Assembly (NCBI GenBank): GCA_949290865.1
Contig: CASETM010000020.1
Span: 1-49,060 of the forward strand
Length of the DNA stretch: 49,060 nucleotides
Reading direction: 5' to 3'
Origin: an uncultured Bacillota bacterium
GTDB taxonomy: Bacteria > Bacillota_I > Bacilli_A > Erysipelotrichales > Coprobacillaceae
Part shown: positions 42,800 to 49,060 of the stretch, piece by piece
Layout: every line of letters starts with the position of its first letter
Numbering within the stretch: the stretch's first letter is position 1
Position numbers and translations under genes: made by a program
Notes under the pieces: generated by a model
What the model was told of the DNA's origin: nothing
The model's input: the letters and a program-made list of their open reading frames with translations, nothing else
Databases searched by the model: none

Positions 42800-42844
42800 G
42801 TTTATTTTGTGTTTATTTTGGCTTATTTTACAAAATAATAAACC
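42800..42844. repeat. Direct and inverted repeats beside the integrase (possible arm-type sites)
   Basis: TTTATTTTG occurs at 42801-42809 and 42812-42820, and a degenerate TTATTTTA at 42823-42830, with an 11-base period. An inverted related copy, CAAAATAATAAACC, lies at 42831-42844. Short direct repeats near the integrase end are where Tn916-type integrase arm domains bind. AT-richness makes chance repeats possible. Confidence 0.4.
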
Positions 42845-42848
42845 AAAA

Positions 42849-44008
42849 TTACTCATTTTTTAGCTTTTCAAGATCAAAATCGATAAGTTGTGCAACTTTT
42901 TGATTCATTGAATTTAAAACGTCTGCATAGATGTCAGCGGTAGTAGATATATCATTGTGTCCTAAGTGAGCAGATACAACTTTGATATCGACATTATTCA
43001 TTAAAAGTAATGTTGCATTAACATGTCTTAAAAAGTGAACTGTTACATATTCATAATCAGTTCCTTTTTTTATTTTATTTAGACGAGTTCCAACACTATT
43101 ACGATGGATAAAATCACCAAATGGATTAGTAAAAACTAAATTTTTATCTTGATAAACATTTTTAAGATATATTTTTCTTTCATTTTGTTCTTCTTTGACC
43201 ATTTTTAATAACCTATAAATCGTATCAGACATTCCTAAAGTTCGATAACTATTTTCTGTTTTAGGAGGTCCTACTATAGCACCTCCTCTAGGAAAATTGA
43301 CCGTTTTATTGATATTAATAGTACGTTTATTAAAATTAATATCATTCCAGGTCAAAGCTGAAGTTTCGCCAATACGCATTCCTGTATAGATTTGAAATCG
43401 GATAATGGCATTGCAAACATCAAATTCTTCAGTTTTGTGTAAAATATCTTGGATTTGTTCAGGTTCAAGTGGTGGTAATTTCTTACTTCGATTTTTCTTT
43501 GGTTTAATAGCATTTTTGCATGGATTATCTTTAATCCATCCTTTGAATCCTTATAGTATTTTTTAGGTTTCAATGGTTTGCCAGTTTTTGGATCTGTCAT
43601 AATTGATATTTCATTTAAAAACATTGTTACTCTATTAGTGGTAATATCACCAATTTTAAGATGACCTAGTTTTGGTAAAATCTTTGAGTTAACAATGTTT
43701 TCCATTCCAATAAAAGTAGCATCTCTTAAATTGTTTGGAGCGTAGTAAGTTTTATACCATTCCCAGACTTCAGATAGTTTTTTTTCTGAGCCAAGATTTT
43801 GTTGTTTTTCAAATTGGTATTGCATTTCAGATTCAATTTCTTTGGCTATTTTTCTAGCTTTACGAATCCCCATATCTTTGGGTGGAGAAAAAGTTTTGTA
43901 TTTTCTTTTTTGAACATAGTTTCCTTTTTTATCAATTTGATATCCATCATAAACAGTAATATCGAAGGAAAGTGATCCGTCTTTCTTTTTTCTTTCATAT
44001 ATGCTCAT
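42849..44008 (-). pseudogene. Tyrosine integrase, disrupted by frameshift with internal deletion
   Basis: Two overlapping frames encode one broken phage-type integrase. The N-terminal part (44008 downwards, MSIYERKKKDGSLSFDITVY) has the arm-binding domain and the start of the core-binding domain (LSEVWEWYKTYYAPN). It stays in frame to about KPLKPKKYYKDSKDG near 43540, then becomes nonsense. In another frame the protein resumes with GWIKDNPC, runs through LPPLEPEQIQDIL and the catalytic residues TGMRIGE, KTENSYRT, HFLRH, LGH and the Tyr in ADIYADV, and ends at 42849. About a dozen residues expected between the two parts are missing, so this is a deletion plus frameshift. GGAGG overlapping the end of the upstream regulator is its ribosome-binding site. 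Confidence 0.85.
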
Positions 44009-44009
44009 A

Positions 44010-44357
44010 TTAATCCTCCAATTGTTTGATAAATATTTTTAAATCAGACAAATTAACATTATTCATTTTTAGATTTTTTAATGTTGTTATAGAATTGCTA
44101 TCTAAAAGAAGAACTTTTGTAACAAAGTCATCATGATTTTGATAATTATCTTCTTTATAAATATAATCAAGACTAACACCATATAATTGAGGTAGTAAAC
44201 ACAATACTTTGTTAGTAGGATTAAGTACATCTTTTTCATAGGCACATAAAGTCTTTCTGTTTAGAAAACCTAAAATTCTTTGAACATCAGCTTGACTATA
44301 TCCAGCATTTAATCTAGCTATTTGTAAACGTGTTTTATATTCTTTTTTTGGTTTCAT
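44010..44357 (-). CDS. XRE-family helix-turn-helix regulator (next to integrase)
   Basis: This 115-residue protein has an N-terminal Cro/CI-type HTH (LQIARLNAGYSQADVQRILG, then LCAYEKDVLNPTNKVL, about residues 8-60) and a helical C-terminal half of unknown role. It probably binds an operator within the element to control excision or transfer genes. AAGGAG precedes the ATG, which overlaps the stop of the other regulator (ATGA). The integrase starts two bases after its stop, so regulator, regulator and integrase form one transcript. Confidence 0.8.
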   Translation of the reverse strand: MKPKKEYKTRLQIARLNAGYSQADVQRILGFLNRKTLCAYEKDVLNPTNKVLCLLPQLYGVSLDYIYKEDNYQNHDDFVTKVLLLDSNSITTLKNLKMNNVNLSDLKIFIKQLED

Positions 44358-44716
44358 AATGTATACTCCTTATAATGAATTTTGATAAAGTTATTTATTC
44401 TTTTTATATGGTTTAAATTGTTTACAGAAGATATGAGTTTCAGTAATTCATCATCAATGCCCAATGCTTTATTAATATATTCAATATGGTTGCGATAATC
44501 ATCAATATGCATCAGAAAATCTAGAGATACTTTATAAGCTTGATGCATTTTAACTAGATTAGGAGCACTGGGAATAGTTTGAGATGATTCGTATTTTCTG
44601 ATAGATCGTCTTTGAACTCCTAACAAATTTGACATAGTTTTTATATCAATATTTGCTTCAATACGACACTGTTTAAAACGATTTGGCAGGGATTTATCCT
44701 GATATTCATATGACAT
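44354..44716 (-). CDS. XRE-family helix-turn-helix regulator (divergent to parB operon)
   Basis: This 120-residue regulator has a Cro/CI-type HTH near residues 10-65 (FKQCRIEANIDIKTMSNLLG, then SIRKYESSQTIPSAPNLVKM) followed by a helical tail. ATG 44716 is chosen because AAGGAGG lies about ten bases before it; the GTG at 44728 overlaps that site. It is first in the minus-strand operon and faces the ParB-like gene across a 262-base gap with a plus-strand promoter and a terminator. Its likely job is to repress one or both divergent promoters. Confidence 0.8.
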   Translation of the reverse strand: MSYEYQDKSLPNRFKQCRIEANIDIKTMSNLLGVQRRSIRKYESSQTIPSAPNLVKMHQAYKVSLDFLMHIDDYRNHIEYINKALGIDDELLKLISSVNNLNHIKRINNFIKIHYKEYTL

Positions 44717-44750
44717 ATTAAATTTCACCTCCTTGAAGAAGCCTTATAAA

Positions 44751-44779
44751 TTGACTTTGTTGCAATAACAGTCTAAAAT
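44751..44779 (+). promoter_or_regulatory. Rightward promoter of the element's ParB-ParA-SSB operon
   Basis: TTGACT (44751-44756), 17 bases, then TAAAAT (44774-44779). The transcript would carry a leader of about 190 bases, with a terminator before the first gene. ACAGTCT overlaps the -10 (44768-44774), and its inverse AGACTGT lies at 44856-44862; both might be operator half-sites. Confidence 0.65.
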
Positions 44780-44925
44780 ATAAAATTTTTAAAATCAAAG
44801 GTACGAATTTTTAGCATATTTTATTTTCTTTTATATAGTTCATGTTAGTTTAATGAGACTGTAATTTTGTTCAGTATTGGTAATAAATGTTTAATAACTT
44901 TTTTAAAATTAAATAAAAAATTTTG

Positions 44926-44961
44926 CGGATATCTTATGAATTTAAGGTATCCGTTTTTTTA
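44926..44961 (+). terminator. Intrinsic terminator in the leader of the element's operon
   Basis: CGGATATCTTA (44926-44936) pairs with TAAGGTATCCG (44943-44953; one G-U pair), followed by seven Ts. It lies 17 bases before the start of the first ParB-like gene, downstream of the only convincing rightward promoter, so it looks like an attenuator. Confidence 0.85.
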
Positions 44962-44978
44962 TTAGGCAGGTGAACTAT

Positions 44979-45854
44979 ATGGAATATGTATATAAGGTGG
45001 TGAATCTACAACAGTTAGATGAATTTCCAAATCATCCATATCAGGTAAGAATAGATGAAGATCTAAGAAATCTTCAAAAAAGTATCATGGAAAGAGGAGT
45101 TGATGAACCATTGATTGTTAGAAAGATTGACGACAGGTATCAAGTCATATCTGGACATCGAAGAATGAAAGCCTGTCAATTGGCTGACATTAGCAATGTG
45201 CCCGTCAGAATAGTTGATCTTAATGATGATGAAGCAGTAGTCATGATGGTTGACAGCAATTTGCATAGAAGAAAATTATTGAAAAGTGAGTTAGCATTTG
45301 CCTATCGAATGAAAAATGAGGTTTTAAAGCATCAGGGTAAGAAGTTCATAGATGAAACAACTTTGTGCCCAGTGGGAACAAACTACAGTACACATTCGGC
45401 ACAGATAATAGCTAATCAAGAAAGAACAAGTAAAAGACAAATTTATCGATATATTCGATTAACTTATTTAAATAAAGGATTATTAGACCTTGTCGATGAA
45501 GAAAGAATAGCTATTCGTCCTGCATATGAACTTTCATTTTTAAATGATAAACAACAGGAAATGCTTTTAAAAGTTATAGAAGAACTTGATGCAACACCCA
45601 GTTTATCTCAGGCTAAATTCTTTAAAGAACTGGCCCAGGATGATGAGCTGGATGAAGAAACCATCTATGATGAATTATTGCAGGAAAAGCCAAATCAAAA
45701 GGAAAAATTAAAATTGGAAGCCAGTAAATTAAGACAGTATTTTCCCAGGGGTGTGACACCTTTGGAAATGCAGGAAGCTATCTTTTATTTGTTGGAAGAA
45801 CACAGTGATGAACTGGAACAGTATATGACCACTTCCTATGAACTGAAGATATAA
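44979..45854 (+). CDS. ParB/RepB/Spo0J-family DNA-binding protein 1 of the mobile element
   Basis: This 291-residue protein has a ParB N-terminal domain (about 10-95) with GVDEPLIVRKIDDRYQVISG and GHRRMKACQ (the CTP/phosphate-binding box) and a following HTH (NQERTSKRQIYRYIRL). The acidic C-terminal part is probably for dimerisation. Such proteins bind parS-like sites and help partition or regulate the excised element. AGGTGA precedes ATG 44979; the GTG at 44970 lies inside that site. It is the first gene after the leader terminator. Confidence 0.85.
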   Translation: MEYVYKVVNLQQLDEFPNHPYQVRIDEDLRNLQKSIMERGVDEPLIVRKIDDRYQVISGHRRMKACQLADISNVPVRIVDLNDDEAVVMMVDSNLHRRKLLKSELAFAYRMKNEVLKHQGKKFIDETTLCPVGTNYSTHSAQIIANQERTSKRQIYRYIRLTYLNKGLLDLVDEERIAIRPAYELSFLNDKQQEMLLKVIEELDATPSLSQAKFFKELAQDDELDEETIYDELLQEKPNQKEKLKLEASKLRQYFPRGVTPLEMQEAIFYLLEEHSDELEQYMTTSYELKI

Positions 45855-45907
45855 AAAAACAAGTAAGAAAAGCTTAGTTGTCTATTTACCAGCGGGAGAG
45901 AGGAAAA

Positions 45908-46840
45908 ATGATAAGTAATAATGTTTATTTAAGATTCGATACTTTTGATGATGAAAAAAGTGTATTGAATTTTATTAAGGAAGAAAAGAATTTTAAAGCT
46001 AATTCTAAAACATGGAAGAAAGATATCTATAAGTTATTGAGATATAAAAAGAAGCATTTAAGGAATTTTGAAAAAGATAATCAGTATCGTAATATTTTTG
46101 GCTATTATCTGAAGATCATGATTCCTGATATTTTTGATAAAAGAGTTGATGAGTTTGTAAGAGAAACAATGTTAGAAATCGATAAACGATTTTTAAAAGA
46201 CCTATATGTTTATAAAATAATCACTGAAGGTAAAGGAAGGTATGCAGAGATTATCTGTTTTACAAGATACGTGTATAAAAGAGCAAACAGATGTCTAAAG
46301 AAATATCAGCGTGATTATTACTATAATCAAAAGACAAAAAAATTATGTAAAAAAGATCATCCTGATGCTGTATTAAAAGCTAAAAAGGGTGATCTTATAC
46401 TGGATAGTAGTGGTCATAAAATATATGAAATTGTTGAGGTCAAAGCAGTTGAAGATAGAATCTTTGTTTATAAAACGATTCAGGAATTAACTCGAAGATT
46501 AAAGAATGCAGTAGCGACTGTCATTAAAGACAATCAGTATCACGAGCTGATCGTTAATATTGTTTCAAGAATTACCATTGATAAAGATGATAGTTCGGCG
46601 GTTAAAAAATATAAACAACAAAGAAATATAGTTATCAGGAAAATCAATGAAATTATCCGATCTTTTATTGAGCATATGAAATTGGGAAATCTTTTAACAA
46701 TTTCAGAAATAAAGGTAATCAATGAAGAATGGTGCAAAAAAGTTGATGAGATGGCACATGAAAAGAGCAGTTCTTTTGATGATATGAAAGACTATCTTTA
46801 TAAATGGTGGCAACAGAATATTATTGAAGTCATGTTCTAG
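45908..46840 (+). CDS. Basic protein of unknown function in the mobile element
   Basis: I do not recognise this 310-residue protein. It is rich in Lys, Arg and Tyr (RYKKKHLRNFEKDNQYRN, FTRYVYKRANRCLKKYQRDY), has no signal or membrane span, and is predicted to be mostly helical, suggesting a nucleic-acid binding protein. Its place between two ParB-like genes and before ParA suggests a role in replication, processing or partition of the element. GGGAGAGAGG (45894-45903) precedes ATG 45908. It ends just before a palindrome at 46842. Confidence 0.65.
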   Translation: MISNNVYLRFDTFDDEKSVLNFIKEEKNFKANSKTWKKDIYKLLRYKKKHLRNFEKDNQYRNIFGYYLKIMIPDIFDKRVDEFVRETMLEIDKRFLKDLYVYKIITEGKGRYAEIICFTRYVYKRANRCLKKYQRDYYYNQKTKKLCKKDHPDAVLKAKKGDLILDSSGHKIYEIVEVKAVEDRIFVYKTIQELTRRLKNAVATVIKDNQYHELIVNIVSRITIDKDDSSAVKKYKQQRNIVIRKINEIIRSFIEHMKLGNLLTISEIKVINEEWCKKVDEMAHEKSSSFDDMKDYLYKWWQQNIIEVMF

Positions 46841-46841
46841 T

Positions 46842-46855
46842 CGGTAATTTTACCG
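46842..46855 (+). promoter_or_regulatory. Palindrome CGGTAA-TT-TTACCG before parA
   Basis: A perfect dyad two bases after the preceding stop codon, in the 106-base gap before parA. Candidate partition (parS-like) or operator site; it has no T-run and so is not a clear terminator. A second small hairpin, TCCAG/CTGGA (46917-46931), lies just before the parA ribosome-binding site. Confidence 0.45.
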
Positions 46856-46946
46856 GGTAGAAAATTTGTATATTTGTTTATAAAACAAAAAAGAAACAAA
46901 ATAAAAGCAGAAAGGTTCCAGTAAAGCTGGATTAAGGAAAAAGAAA

Positions 46947-47816
46947 ATGAAAATTATAAGTGTAATCAATCAAAAAGGTGGCGTTGGAAAAACGCAGACA
47001 AGTATTAATTCAGCAGTGAGTTTAAGTAGAAAGGGATACCGTGTCTTGCTTATAGATGGAGATGCACAGGGCAATGCAACAAGCTATTTTGACAAAAAAG
47101 TAAATGATATCAATCTATCAAAATTTATAGAAAAAGAGTTTGATAATCAAGAACCATTAAAATGGCTTGAAGAAGCATTAGGTGATGCATTCTATGAATA
47201 TGATATCAATGATGTTCTTTTAGGACAGTGTCAGATCAAAGAAGCAATATATGCTACTGATTATGAAAATCTGTCTATTATTCCTTCTACAGAAACAAGA
47301 CTGATCAATACAGACCAGCTTATCAAAGCTGCCAATAAAATGCAGCATAACCGTCTAAAGAAGGCATTAAGAGATGTTAGAAAAGAATTTGATTATGTTG
47401 TCATTGATAATGCACCAACATTTAATACGATCACTCTAAATACTTTATTTACTAGTGATAAAGTCATTATTCCATTAAAGATTGGAAGATTTGAACTTGC
47501 AGGTTTTATCAAAACGATGAATGAACTGGAAAATCTAATGAATGACTTTGAATGCTTTTATCAGATCTATGTGTTATTTAACATGATTCCTAGAGGCAAG
47601 AGACCTCTTTATAGTGCTTTCATTGAAAAAATCAGAGGAATATTCAGTTCAACAGATAAATTATATGAAGTTAAGGTTTTGAATACTACAATAGGCTATC
47701 AGGACGCTGTTGCTTCCAAATCAGCTATGTCCTGTCAGCTGTTAGTTGATACCAAGAGCAAAATTGCTGATGACTATAAAAGATTTGCAGAAGAAATATT
47801 AGAGAAGGGACAGTAG
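46947..47816 (+). CDS. parA: ParA/Soj-family partition ATPase of the mobile element
   Basis: This 289-residue ATPase has the deviant Walker A KGGVGKTQTS (about 10-19), IDGDAQGNAT, and the Walker B-like VVIDNAPTFN. ParA proteins move ParB-bound DNA by ATP-dependent patterning on the nucleoid. In conjugative elements they stabilise the excised circular form or help position the transfer machinery. TTAAGGA lies nine bases before the ATG. The stop TAG is part of the ribosome-binding site AGGTGA of the following ParB-like gene. Confidence 0.93.
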   Translation: MKIISVINQKGGVGKTQTSINSAVSLSRKGYRVLLIDGDAQGNATSYFDKKVNDINLSKFIEKEFDNQEPLKWLEEALGDAFYEYDINDVLLGQCQIKEAIYATDYENLSIIPSTETRLINTDQLIKAANKMQHNRLKKALRDVRKEFDYVVIDNAPTFNTITLNTLFTSDKVIIPLKIGRFELAGFIKTMNELENLMNDFECFYQIYVLFNMIPRGKRPLYSAFIEKIRGIFSSTDKLYEVKVLNTTIGYQDAVASKSAMSCQLLVDTKSKIADDYKRFAEEILEKGQ

Positions 47817-47825
47817 GTGATATAT

Positions 47826-48509
47826 ATGAGCTTAACGGATTTACAGAATATGCAACCTAAAATGAATCATCTGCTCGGACTTAGAAAAATTGATATTGAA
47901 GATATAAAAGAAAATGATCATAACATTTTTGAACAAAGAGATATCGATGAATTGAAAGAAAATATCAAAAAAGATGGATTATTAAAACCTTTGGAAGTCT
48001 ATCAGGATGATGATCATTATATTTTAATAGGTGGACATCGTCGTTATAATGCTTTGTTGCAGCTGTATATGGATGATTTAATCGAACCAGAGATTAACTG
48101 CATTGTCTATCCAAAACCGGATTGTGAAAATAATGAATTGATTCAGATCATTGCTTCAAATGCTCAAAGAAACATGAGTAAAGCAGAACTGGTTGAAATA
48201 ACCAGGATATTATTAAAAATTCTAGAAAGTGAGCCGGACAGAAAGCCAAAAGGAATGGAAACCAGAGTATGGATAGGCGGATATTTGGGGGTATGTGGTA
48301 AGACTGCCCAGGAATATATCAATTTAGCAAGAGGGAAAAAACAAATGTCTAAAAAAGAAAGAGATATATCTTTTGAATACGTAGAAACGTTACTTAGAGA
48401 GAAGTATTCAACTAAAGTAAAGGTGACTAAGAATAGAGTGACACTTATTTACAATGGAGTGGATGATCTTAATAGAATACTTGAAATCATGAATTGTATA
48501 GAAAAATAA
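47826..48509 (+). CDS. ParB-family protein 2 of the mobile element
   Basis: This 227-residue protein has a ParB N-terminal domain (about 20-110) with GLLKPLEVYQ and ILIGGHRRYNAL, and a helical HTH-like part (GVCGKTAQEYINLA), then a C-terminal dimerisation-like segment. It is the probable partner of the ParA encoded nine bases upstream, completing a parAB cassette; the first ParB-like protein at 44979 is more distant in sequence and place. AGGTGA before ATG 47826 sets the start; the GTG at 47817 is rejected. Confidence 0.87.
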   Translation: MSLTDLQNMQPKMNHLLGLRKIDIEDIKENDHNIFEQRDIDELKENIKKDGLLKPLEVYQDDDHYILIGGHRRYNALLQLYMDDLIEPEINCIVYPKPDCENNELIQIIASNAQRNMSKAELVEITRILLKILESEPDRKPKGMETRVWIGGYLGVCGKTAQEYINLARGKKQMSKKERDISFEYVETLLREKYSTKVKVTKNRVTLIYNGVDDLNRILEIMNCIEK

Positions 48510-48523
48510 AATGGAGGACTTAT

Positions 48524-48814
48524 ATGTTTAAAGTTATTTTATGTGAAAAAATCAACAGTGAATTGACTGTCAAAGAAGTTGGAGACAGAAAGGTATGTAA
48601 TTTTACATTGGCTTGTAAAAATGCATTTGATAAATATGAATCCCATGTGCGATGTTCGATCTGGGGTTCGTTTGTTGATGAACTTGTAAAGAAAGATTAC
48701 ACAGATAAAACAGTTTTTATCGAAGGAGAAGGAACAAATAAGCTGTTGGATAACAATGATGGAAATCGTCATTATATTTTTAATGTCAAATGTTCAAGAA
48801 TTGAAGTTGTATGA
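48524..48814 (+). CDS. Short single-stranded DNA-binding protein (SSB-like)
   Basis: This 96-residue protein looks like an OB-fold SSB without the long acidic tail: KVCNFTLACKNAF, RCSIWGSFVDELVK and TVFIEGEGTNKLL match the strand pattern of SSB. Element-encoded SSBs protect the transferred single strand. GGAGG at 48513-48517 before ATG 48524 sets the start; the frame opens earlier within the ParB gene. It overlaps nothing and precedes a structured 61-base element. Confidence 0.8.
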   Translation: MFKVILCEKINSELTVKEVGDRKVCNFTLACKNAFDKYESHVRCSIWGSFVDELVKKDYTDKTVFIEGEGTNKLLDNNDGNRHYIFNVKCSRIEVV

Positions 48815-48817
48815 TAA

Positions 48818-48878
48818 AGTGAGGTTTTCGCCCTGAAAAGACAAATAAACAATAGACGATAGTCGGCGATACCTCTCT
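48818..48878 (+). ncRNA. Structured 61-base element between SSB and the LtrC-like gene
   Basis: AGTGAGGT (48818-48825) pairs with ACCTCTCT (48871-48878; one mismatch), then TCGCC (48828-48832) with GGCGA (48865-48869), enclosing a loop with a small GAC-GATA-GTC hairpin (48855-48864). It is more GC-rich than its surroundings. It may be a regulatory RNA, a leader for the next gene or a DNA hairpin such as a transfer-origin part. Confidence 0.45.
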
Positions 48879-48910
48879 CCCTTTTAATTTATGAAAGGCA
48901 GGTAACTTAA

Positions 48911-49060
48911 GTGAATATTAAAGAAAGAAGAAATGAAACAAAGGCATATGATCTGGTTACATTGGCTGCTGATCTAGGATTTACACCTGTTAAGGTCAGC
49001 AGTCGATTTATTTCACTGGAAGAACATGATTCAGTGATGATCAATATCACTAGAAATACA
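48911..49060 (+). CDS. Start of a probable DUF3991/LtrC-like protein (cut by window edge)
   Basis: Only the first 50 codons are in the window, starting with GTG at 48911 and containing VTLAADLGFTPVKVSSRFIS and LEEHDSVMIN. This resembles the N-terminus of DUF3991/CHC2-type zinc and TOPRIM-like proteins (LtrC family) found after SSB in Firmicutes conjugative elements, where they are thought to act as primases. AGGCAGGT lies upstream. The identification is based on a short stretch and position. Confidence 0.55.
   Translation, partial: MNIKERRNETKAYDLVTLAADLGFTPVKVSSRFISLEEHDSVMINITRNT

Follow-up and report, generated by a model that had tools for sequence, protein, structure and literature searches.

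Candidate structured RNA motifs of mobile elements are a class found in Rfam-style catalogues. The element described here, a three-way-junction structure lying between ssb and an LtrC-like gene, resembles members of that class in being a short intergenic structure on the gene strand, with compensatory changes and no known ligand; unlike them, it matches no Rfam family. Structured DNA sites of conjugative elements offer further points of comparison. The part of PMC4595007 that describes sso1 of ICEBs1 places stem-loops in an ICE intergenic region, as is the case here, but sso1 has three separate stem-loops, whereas the present element is one closed three-way junction that recurs within an element, and the likeness is one judged by description. 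According to the relevant portion of PMC11541004, Frpo/ssi single-strand promoters are structured elements close to ssb in a conjugative region; Frpo lies upstream of ssb and carries its −35/−10 sequences within the fold, whereas the present element is downstream of ssb, has an outer stem of only five to eight pairs and contains no + strand promoter-like pair. The −35/−10 pair within the folded strand that marks a single-strand promoter of the Frpo type is thus not seen on the + strand; one minus-strand promoter-like match (48839 to 48811) reaches into the element, at chance level (2 found versus 2.7 expected). Finally, the oriT of the pLS20 MobL system is also an inverted repeat, but it occurs only once, at a distance of 865 bp from its relaxase gene (PMC5313138). 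MobL relaxase genes occur on the same contigs as the structured element in three related genomes (G289:C112:50286, G028:C97:67880 and G017:C157:10755), but at these three loci the element is 19–31 kb away, and it can occur twice. Since the nearness to the relaxase gene is lacking, an oriT of the MobL type was rejected.

A search of the whole window, that is, the entire 49,060-base stretch of DNA analyzed, against 4,227 Rfam families returned no match at gathering thresholds, and at E<=10 or 5 only weak unrelated matches appeared at the window, G017 and G028 loci. Open-access literature on DUF3991, on LtrC/oriT and on structured RNA in ICEs yielded nothing relevant on such an element. Judged by its sequence, the element thus appears to be uncatalogued and may be a new candidate among structured cis-acting RNA motifs of mobile elements.

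The window corresponds to a complete contig (G000:C20) with an integrated element at its right end. The gene order there is a broken tyrosine integrase (two ORFs), two HTH regulators, ParB, an unnamed conserved gene, ParA, another ParB, ssb, the structured element and, cut off after 150 bases, an LtrC-like gene. The integrase (42849–44008, − strand) is split into two overlapping frames of 218 and 176 aa; at the same place the related genomes G035 and G289 have intact frames of 402 and 403 aa. The unnamed protein of ~310 aa (45902–46840) has no Pfam match; almost every related element read has it next to ParA (12 further loci by tblastn), and it may act as an initiator of replication or transfer. 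The features that matter for the structured element are as follows.

46947–47816, + strand: ParA-like gene (PF13614, E 1.6e-44), in one cluster with the second ParB-like gene
47817–48509, + strand: second ParB-like gene, ParB2 (PF02195, E 1.7e-7), the bait for related loci
48524–48814, + strand: ssb gene, upstream neighbour, 96 aa, SSB family (Pfam PF00436, E 6e-7)
48818–48878, + strand: three-way-junction structured element (fold z −3.1, covariance-model relatives, pair counts)
48821–48825, + strand: outer (distal) closing-stem 5′ arm GAGGT, pairing with 48871–48875; GAGAC with a matching 3′ arm in G289
48828–48832, + strand: inner closing-stem 5′ arm TCGCC, pairing with 48865–48869; 5/5 pairs in 8/8 copies
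48833–48840, + strand: small 5′ hairpin CT-GAAA-AG, which folds; 4-bp CCAT/ATGG in G028 copy 1
48841–48854, + strand: conserved single strand ACAAATAAACAATA between the two hairpins, recurring in relatives and interrupted in G028 copy 2
48855–48864, + strand: small 3′ hairpin GAC-GATA-GTC, from the fold; A-U to G-C change in G028
48865–48869, + strand: inner closing-stem 3′ arm GGCGA, from the fold; 5/5 pairs in 8/8 copies
48871–48875, + strand: outer closing-stem 3′ arm ACCTC, from the fold
48876–48885, + strand: pyrimidine tract, its CCTTTT able to pair with the ribosome-binding site at 48894–48898; inconsistent across relatives
48894–48902, + strand: probable ribosome-binding site AAAGGCAGG of the LtrC-like gene, from sequence
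48911–49060, + strand: LtrC-like gene with a GTG start, truncated at the contig end; 74% identity over 50 residues to the G289 DUF3991/Toprim protein

The G289 LtrC-like protein is full-length, with both DUF3991 and Toprim_2.

An earlier sequence-only reading had proposed nested stems of eight (one mismatch) and five pairs around a 32-base loop, and this proved exact to the base. The outer stem (48818–48825/48871–48878) comprises A48818-T48878, G48819-C48877, G48821-C48875, A48822-T48874, G48823-C48873, G48824-C48872 and T48825-A48871, with the mismatch T48820×T48876. An internal loop, TT (48826–48827) opposite T48870, separates it from the inner stem (48828–48832/48865–48869), formed by T48828-A48869, C48829-G48868, G48830-C48867, C48831-G48866 and C48832-G48865. 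The single hairpin proposed within the loop (48833–48864) is present but is one of two: a 3-bp hairpin (G48855-A48856-C48857/G48862-T48863-C48864) and a weak 2-bp one (C48833-G48840, T48834-A48839). The same reading rightly placed the structure outside any gene (ssb ends at 48814, the next start, GTG, is at 48911 and no ORF spans the region, so that a coding sequence was rejected) and in DNA of raised GC content (0.43 versus 0.34 for the contig). Its claim of more structure than expected by chance holds against shuffling: the + strand RNA MFE is −16.9 kcal/mol (z −3.12), with 1/200 dinucleotide shuffles equally good, compared with a weaker RNA fold on the minus strand (z −1.9) and z −2.5 and −2.2 for the two strands folded as DNA. 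By MFE alone, however, the element is unexceptional: 1.6% of 19,600 contig windows of the same length (both strands, step 5) match or beat it, as do 28 of 2,480 within 42800–49060. The single-sequence evidence is therefore modest, and the strong evidence for the element is comparative.

Eight copies of the element were found in five genomes: one each in the window (G000), G035 (Erysipelatoclostridium sp. An173) and G289, two in G028 and three in G017. Outside the window, the four other genomes, which all belong to the same order, carry their seven copies in mobile-element loci, and all eight copies have in common a closing stem, small hairpins and a ACAAATAAACAA-like linker. The G035 locus is nearly identical to the window (97% over 186 bases; blastn, 43 genomes of the family) and has the same ssb, element and LtrC order; its LtrC-like gene is broken ~60 bases in by an IS21-type insertion (IstA/IstB-like, by eye; L002 from ~1690). 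The order is the same again in G289, which belongs to another family and whose ParB2 is 73% identical to that of the window. In G289, GAGAC and a 3′ arm complementary to it take the place of the GAGGT/ACCTC outer stem of the window, and the linker and inner stem are nearly unchanged. The G289 element also holds, beside SpaA-type surface protein genes, a reverse transcriptase gene (L082:13590-15470; RVT_1, E 1.1e-35) that probably marks a group II intron.

More distant loci were reached with a ParB2 profile, which matched 177 of 288 genomes at E<=1e-8, mostly weakly, and with covariance models run over the related loci. Model R1, built from the window, G035 and G289 copies, gave 17.6 bits in G028 (E 0.05 in 322 kb) and 15.0 and 14.3 bits at two places in G017 (E 0.22 and 0.34). 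These matches are weak by score alone, but all three have in common the linker ACAAATA(A/C)ACAAAA with a small hairpin on either side, and the closing stem around them differs in sequence. When G028 was added to the R1 sequences and G017 was left out of training (R2), the matches in G017 at E<=0.1 were exactly its three copies (E 0.0026, 0.0052 and 0.079). The second G028 copy, first spotted by eye, was then recovered at E 1.3e-4 by R3, a seven-sequence model from whose training it had been left out. Fold z values are −3.5 for G035, −2.5 for G289 and −2.8 for G028 copy 1, compared with −3.1 for the window; for G017 copies a and b taken alone they are at the level of shuffles (0.19 and −0.94). 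In G014, the nearest other ICE searched (LtrC 53% identical), there is no element between ssb and LtrC, and it is therefore dispensable there.

The sequence-only reading had called the element conserved-looking, and relatives were examined for conservation and covariation of its stems; the stems turned out to be retained with compensatory changes. The counts, which come from only five lineages and from alignments partly fitted to the structure with the model's help and so lean towards it, are 96.7% of 60 cells paired in a four-sequence alignment (slid controls 35–63%), with both-side changes at 7 of 15 pairs, and 95.0% of 101 cells in a seven-sequence alignment (slid controls 27–62%), with double-sided changes at eight pairs. 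Every copy forms the five inner pairs, but arms swapped between lineages still pair at 90%, because G.U is allowed, and the inner stem is therefore of little weight. The outer arms are more informative: over the five lineages, pairing with their own partners ranks 3 of 120 permutations. Thus, the hairpin is a genuine three-way-junction structure, conserved and recurring among related conjugative elements.

Matches beyond the eight copies are of mixed quality. A pattern search allowing <=3 mismatches in 294 genomes of the order matched six, namely G000, G035, G289 and, with a look-alike in a chromosomal gap, three related species. That gap (L003 1485-1530, L014 and L015, from G021, G020 and G023) has an ABC-transporter gene on one side and a ChbG/YdjC-like gene on the other (names by eye) and contains GAAAAGACAAATAATCAATAGACGA, which in G021 agrees with the window linker at 24 specified bases without mismatch and is flanked by two other hairpins; R3 scores the L003 look-alike at 18.0 bits (E 0.016). 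Patterns run in 392 and 195 genomes matched six and three, with the element fold only in G000, G028 and G289; a G497 match was judged from sequence, unfolded, and two-mismatch matches in G002 and G022 are outside the eight-copy count. Also outside it is a G022 site reported by R3 (L106:5725-5791, minus strand; 21.2 bits, E 0.0011), which is AT-rich, lies on the strand opposite to that of the element's genes and has a weaker counterpart in G021 (R1, R2). Across 288 genomes R1 matched 13 at E<=0.1, convincingly only G000 and G035; the other 11 (19.6–23.2 bits) were rejected, being mostly in or by coding sequence and without the linker-plus-stem, and G289 is not among the 13, possibly left out by the 288-genome draw. 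R2 matched six of 43 genomes; its matches in G016 (within transposase-like coding sequence, by eye) and G004 (without linker-plus-closing-stem) were discarded. An SSB-alignment search of genome contigs gave two loci, both already found by the whole-genome searches. Searches of viral contigs with the LtrC protein and with ParB2 as queries gave no relatives. Five DNA patterns matched 0, 21, 8, 4 and 72 viral stretches; linker and closing stem occurred together in none of the sets of 21, 8 and 4, and in the set of 72 a 3′ ACGG is within reach in seven, which are nearly one repeated sequence with other spacing and were set aside by sequence, unfolded. Plasmid blastn with the window element and plasmid and phage blastn with the G017 element gave no credible match.

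The copies differ in what lies downstream. Those in the window, G035 and G289 are directly before LtrC; G028 copy 1 is followed by an unknown gene that lies upstream of ssb, and G028 copy 2 by a 60-residue ORF. These five of the eight end 23–36 nt upstream of a start codon. In G017, an MNT (Polbeta family) and HEPN gene pair stands between copies a and b, for which the distance to the next long ORF is ~140 and 235 nt, and copy c adjoins a second MNT-HEPN pair. An intrinsic terminator follows copy b within 10 nt (one of two G017 copies scanned); at the window element the search of 48500–49060 for a GC-rich stem with a T-run found none, and a terminator was rejected as its identity. The window spacer (48877–48910) folds locally at −6.3 kcal/mol, and shuffles equally good for spacer pairing with the ribosome-binding site number 25/500 in the window, 31/500 in G035 and 0/500 in G028 copy 2; the pairing is absent in G289 (101/500) and G028 copy 1 (226/500), so that three of five leaders show it.

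Each of the eight copies is on the same strand as its flanking genes. On that strand the inner stem contains G.U in 8 of 40 cells and A.C in none, amounting to approximately four events. Gene-strand location and the occurrence of G.U, not A.C, favour mRNA. Two copies lie within one contig region both in G017 and in G028, and this recurrence within one element, together with the 19–31 kb to the MobL genes, argues against oriT. In the pLS20 system, MobL nicks the template strand (PMC5313138), so that A.C mismatches would, by analogy, be expected on the transferred strand. Strand, distance and copy number together favour RNA over oriT and, by this analogy, over a fold of the transferred strand. 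The sequence-only reading had offered both an uncharacterised regulatory RNA and a DNA hairpin used in transfer. The latter fits poorly with two copies within single mobile loci so far from a MobL gene. The former is the better guess, given the lack of an Rfam match, the sense-strand wobbles, the strand of all eight copies and the five copies directly before a start codon, and it stands as an interpretation. We give roughly even chances to the element being an uncatalogued intercistronic cis-acting RNA of an ICE family of this order.

Other explanations account for parts of these data. As a single-stranded DNA site, the fold would serve priming or loading (a single-strand origin, a primosome or primase site, or a single-strand promoter) while the element is single-stranded in transfer or rolling-circle replication, with the Toprim protein LtrC as a possible user. 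The neighbouring SSB and DUF3991/Toprim proteins, the conserved single strand between the hairpins and the two DNA strands, both of which beat most shuffles, are in keeping with such a role, and sso1 of ICEBs1 works through three stem-loops and acts in one orientation (PMC4595007). Yet the wobbles are on the sense strand, and a transferred strand chosen as in MobL nicking of the template strand (PMC5313138) would by analogy have A.C in their place; the G289 copy is weak as DNA (z −0.9 and −1.3), other copies adjoin genes unrelated to single-stranded DNA (MNT-HEPN, an Ig-like-domain protein) and the + strand lacks a −35/−10 pair. We consider this reading unlikely. Inverted repeats of this size act as sites elsewhere, and ParA/ParB genes adjoin the locus, so a double-stranded or extruded DNA site (oriT-like, partition-like or a regulator site) to which a protein of the element binds could also be imagined. 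It is quite improbable: a conserved loop-linker with changing stem sequence is the pattern of folded RNA or single-stranded DNA, not of a duplex site, two copies occur per mobile locus in G028 and G017, and the distance to MobL again far exceeds the 865 bp of pLS20 (PMC5313138).

The positions of the G017 copies, on each side of one MNT-HEPN pair and beside another, and the two copies in G028 would suit a small dispersible repeat or recombination site spreading within these elements with no regulatory role. However, the copies vary in stem sequence yet stay paired, and the copy between ssb and LtrC holds its position in G289, where ParB2 is 73% identical; to this explanation, too, we assign a low probability. 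Least probable is a chance hairpin conserved merely through recent descent. The share of contig windows that equal its MFE and the near-identity of window and G035 would allow for it, but the G289, G028 and G017 copies show compensatory change, and the structure recurs with changed stems.

What fits best is a cis-acting RNA with varying expression platforms. The data show the structure and its conservation, the compensatory changes, the recurrence, and the orientation and position of the copies; from these we infer RNA as the working form, a bound factor and the direction of control. Such an RNA would be transcribed with the ssb-LtrC operon and fold as a three-way junction of closing stem, small 5′ hairpin, single-stranded ACAAAUAAACAA-like linker and small 3′ hairpin. 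A factor would read the folded junction and linker, and the outcome might pass to the neighbouring gene via the downstream part, that is, a pyrimidine tract masking the ribosome-binding site in some copies and an intrinsic terminator in one. The module recurs in further gaps of related ICEs: in front of LtrC or of an unknown gene, and on both sides of an MNT-HEPN pair. More speculatively, and with considerable doubt, the conjugative elements of this order may have a modular RNA control layer in which one three-way-junction motif, repeated across gaps and recognised by an element-encoded factor, jointly tunes, at the post-transcriptional level, genes as separate as LtrC, unknown genes and a toxin-antitoxin-like pair, alongside a second layer of short palindromic hairpins before many genes. 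If the element is RNA, it would be an uncatalogued structured motif inside the replication/transfer operon of conjugative elements from gut-type Firmicutes, in which gene control has received little study, and with several copies per element a single regulator could act on separate genes. As single-stranded DNA, it would give a lead on the handling of incoming DNA by the LtrC/SSB module. In both cases, the motif is a defined sequence to mutate.

Related ICEs also have a short palindrome in many intergenic gaps, often directly before the next ribosome-binding site: TGGCAAnnTTGCCA in G028, GGTGGCAAnnTTGCCACC in G021/G022 and TGTAGCAAnnTTGCTACA in G017. Its strict form was not found in the G289 stretches L082/L083. 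The sites are as follows.

L084 (G028), palindrome sites: 5665, 8415, 10272, 11936
L090, palindrome sites: 10915, 14255, 15923
L161, palindrome sites: 4791, 5749, 6957, 7823, 11871
L105 (G021), palindrome sites: 4061, 5555, 6777, 8073
L106 (G022), palindrome sites: 9244, 10736, 11957, 13255
L109 and L158 (G017), minus strand: palindrome sites at 11 places

Between ICEs the palindrome stem varies with compensation, and the middle two bases are variable. The 3′ hairpin of the element in G028 copy 1 is itself a form of this palindrome.
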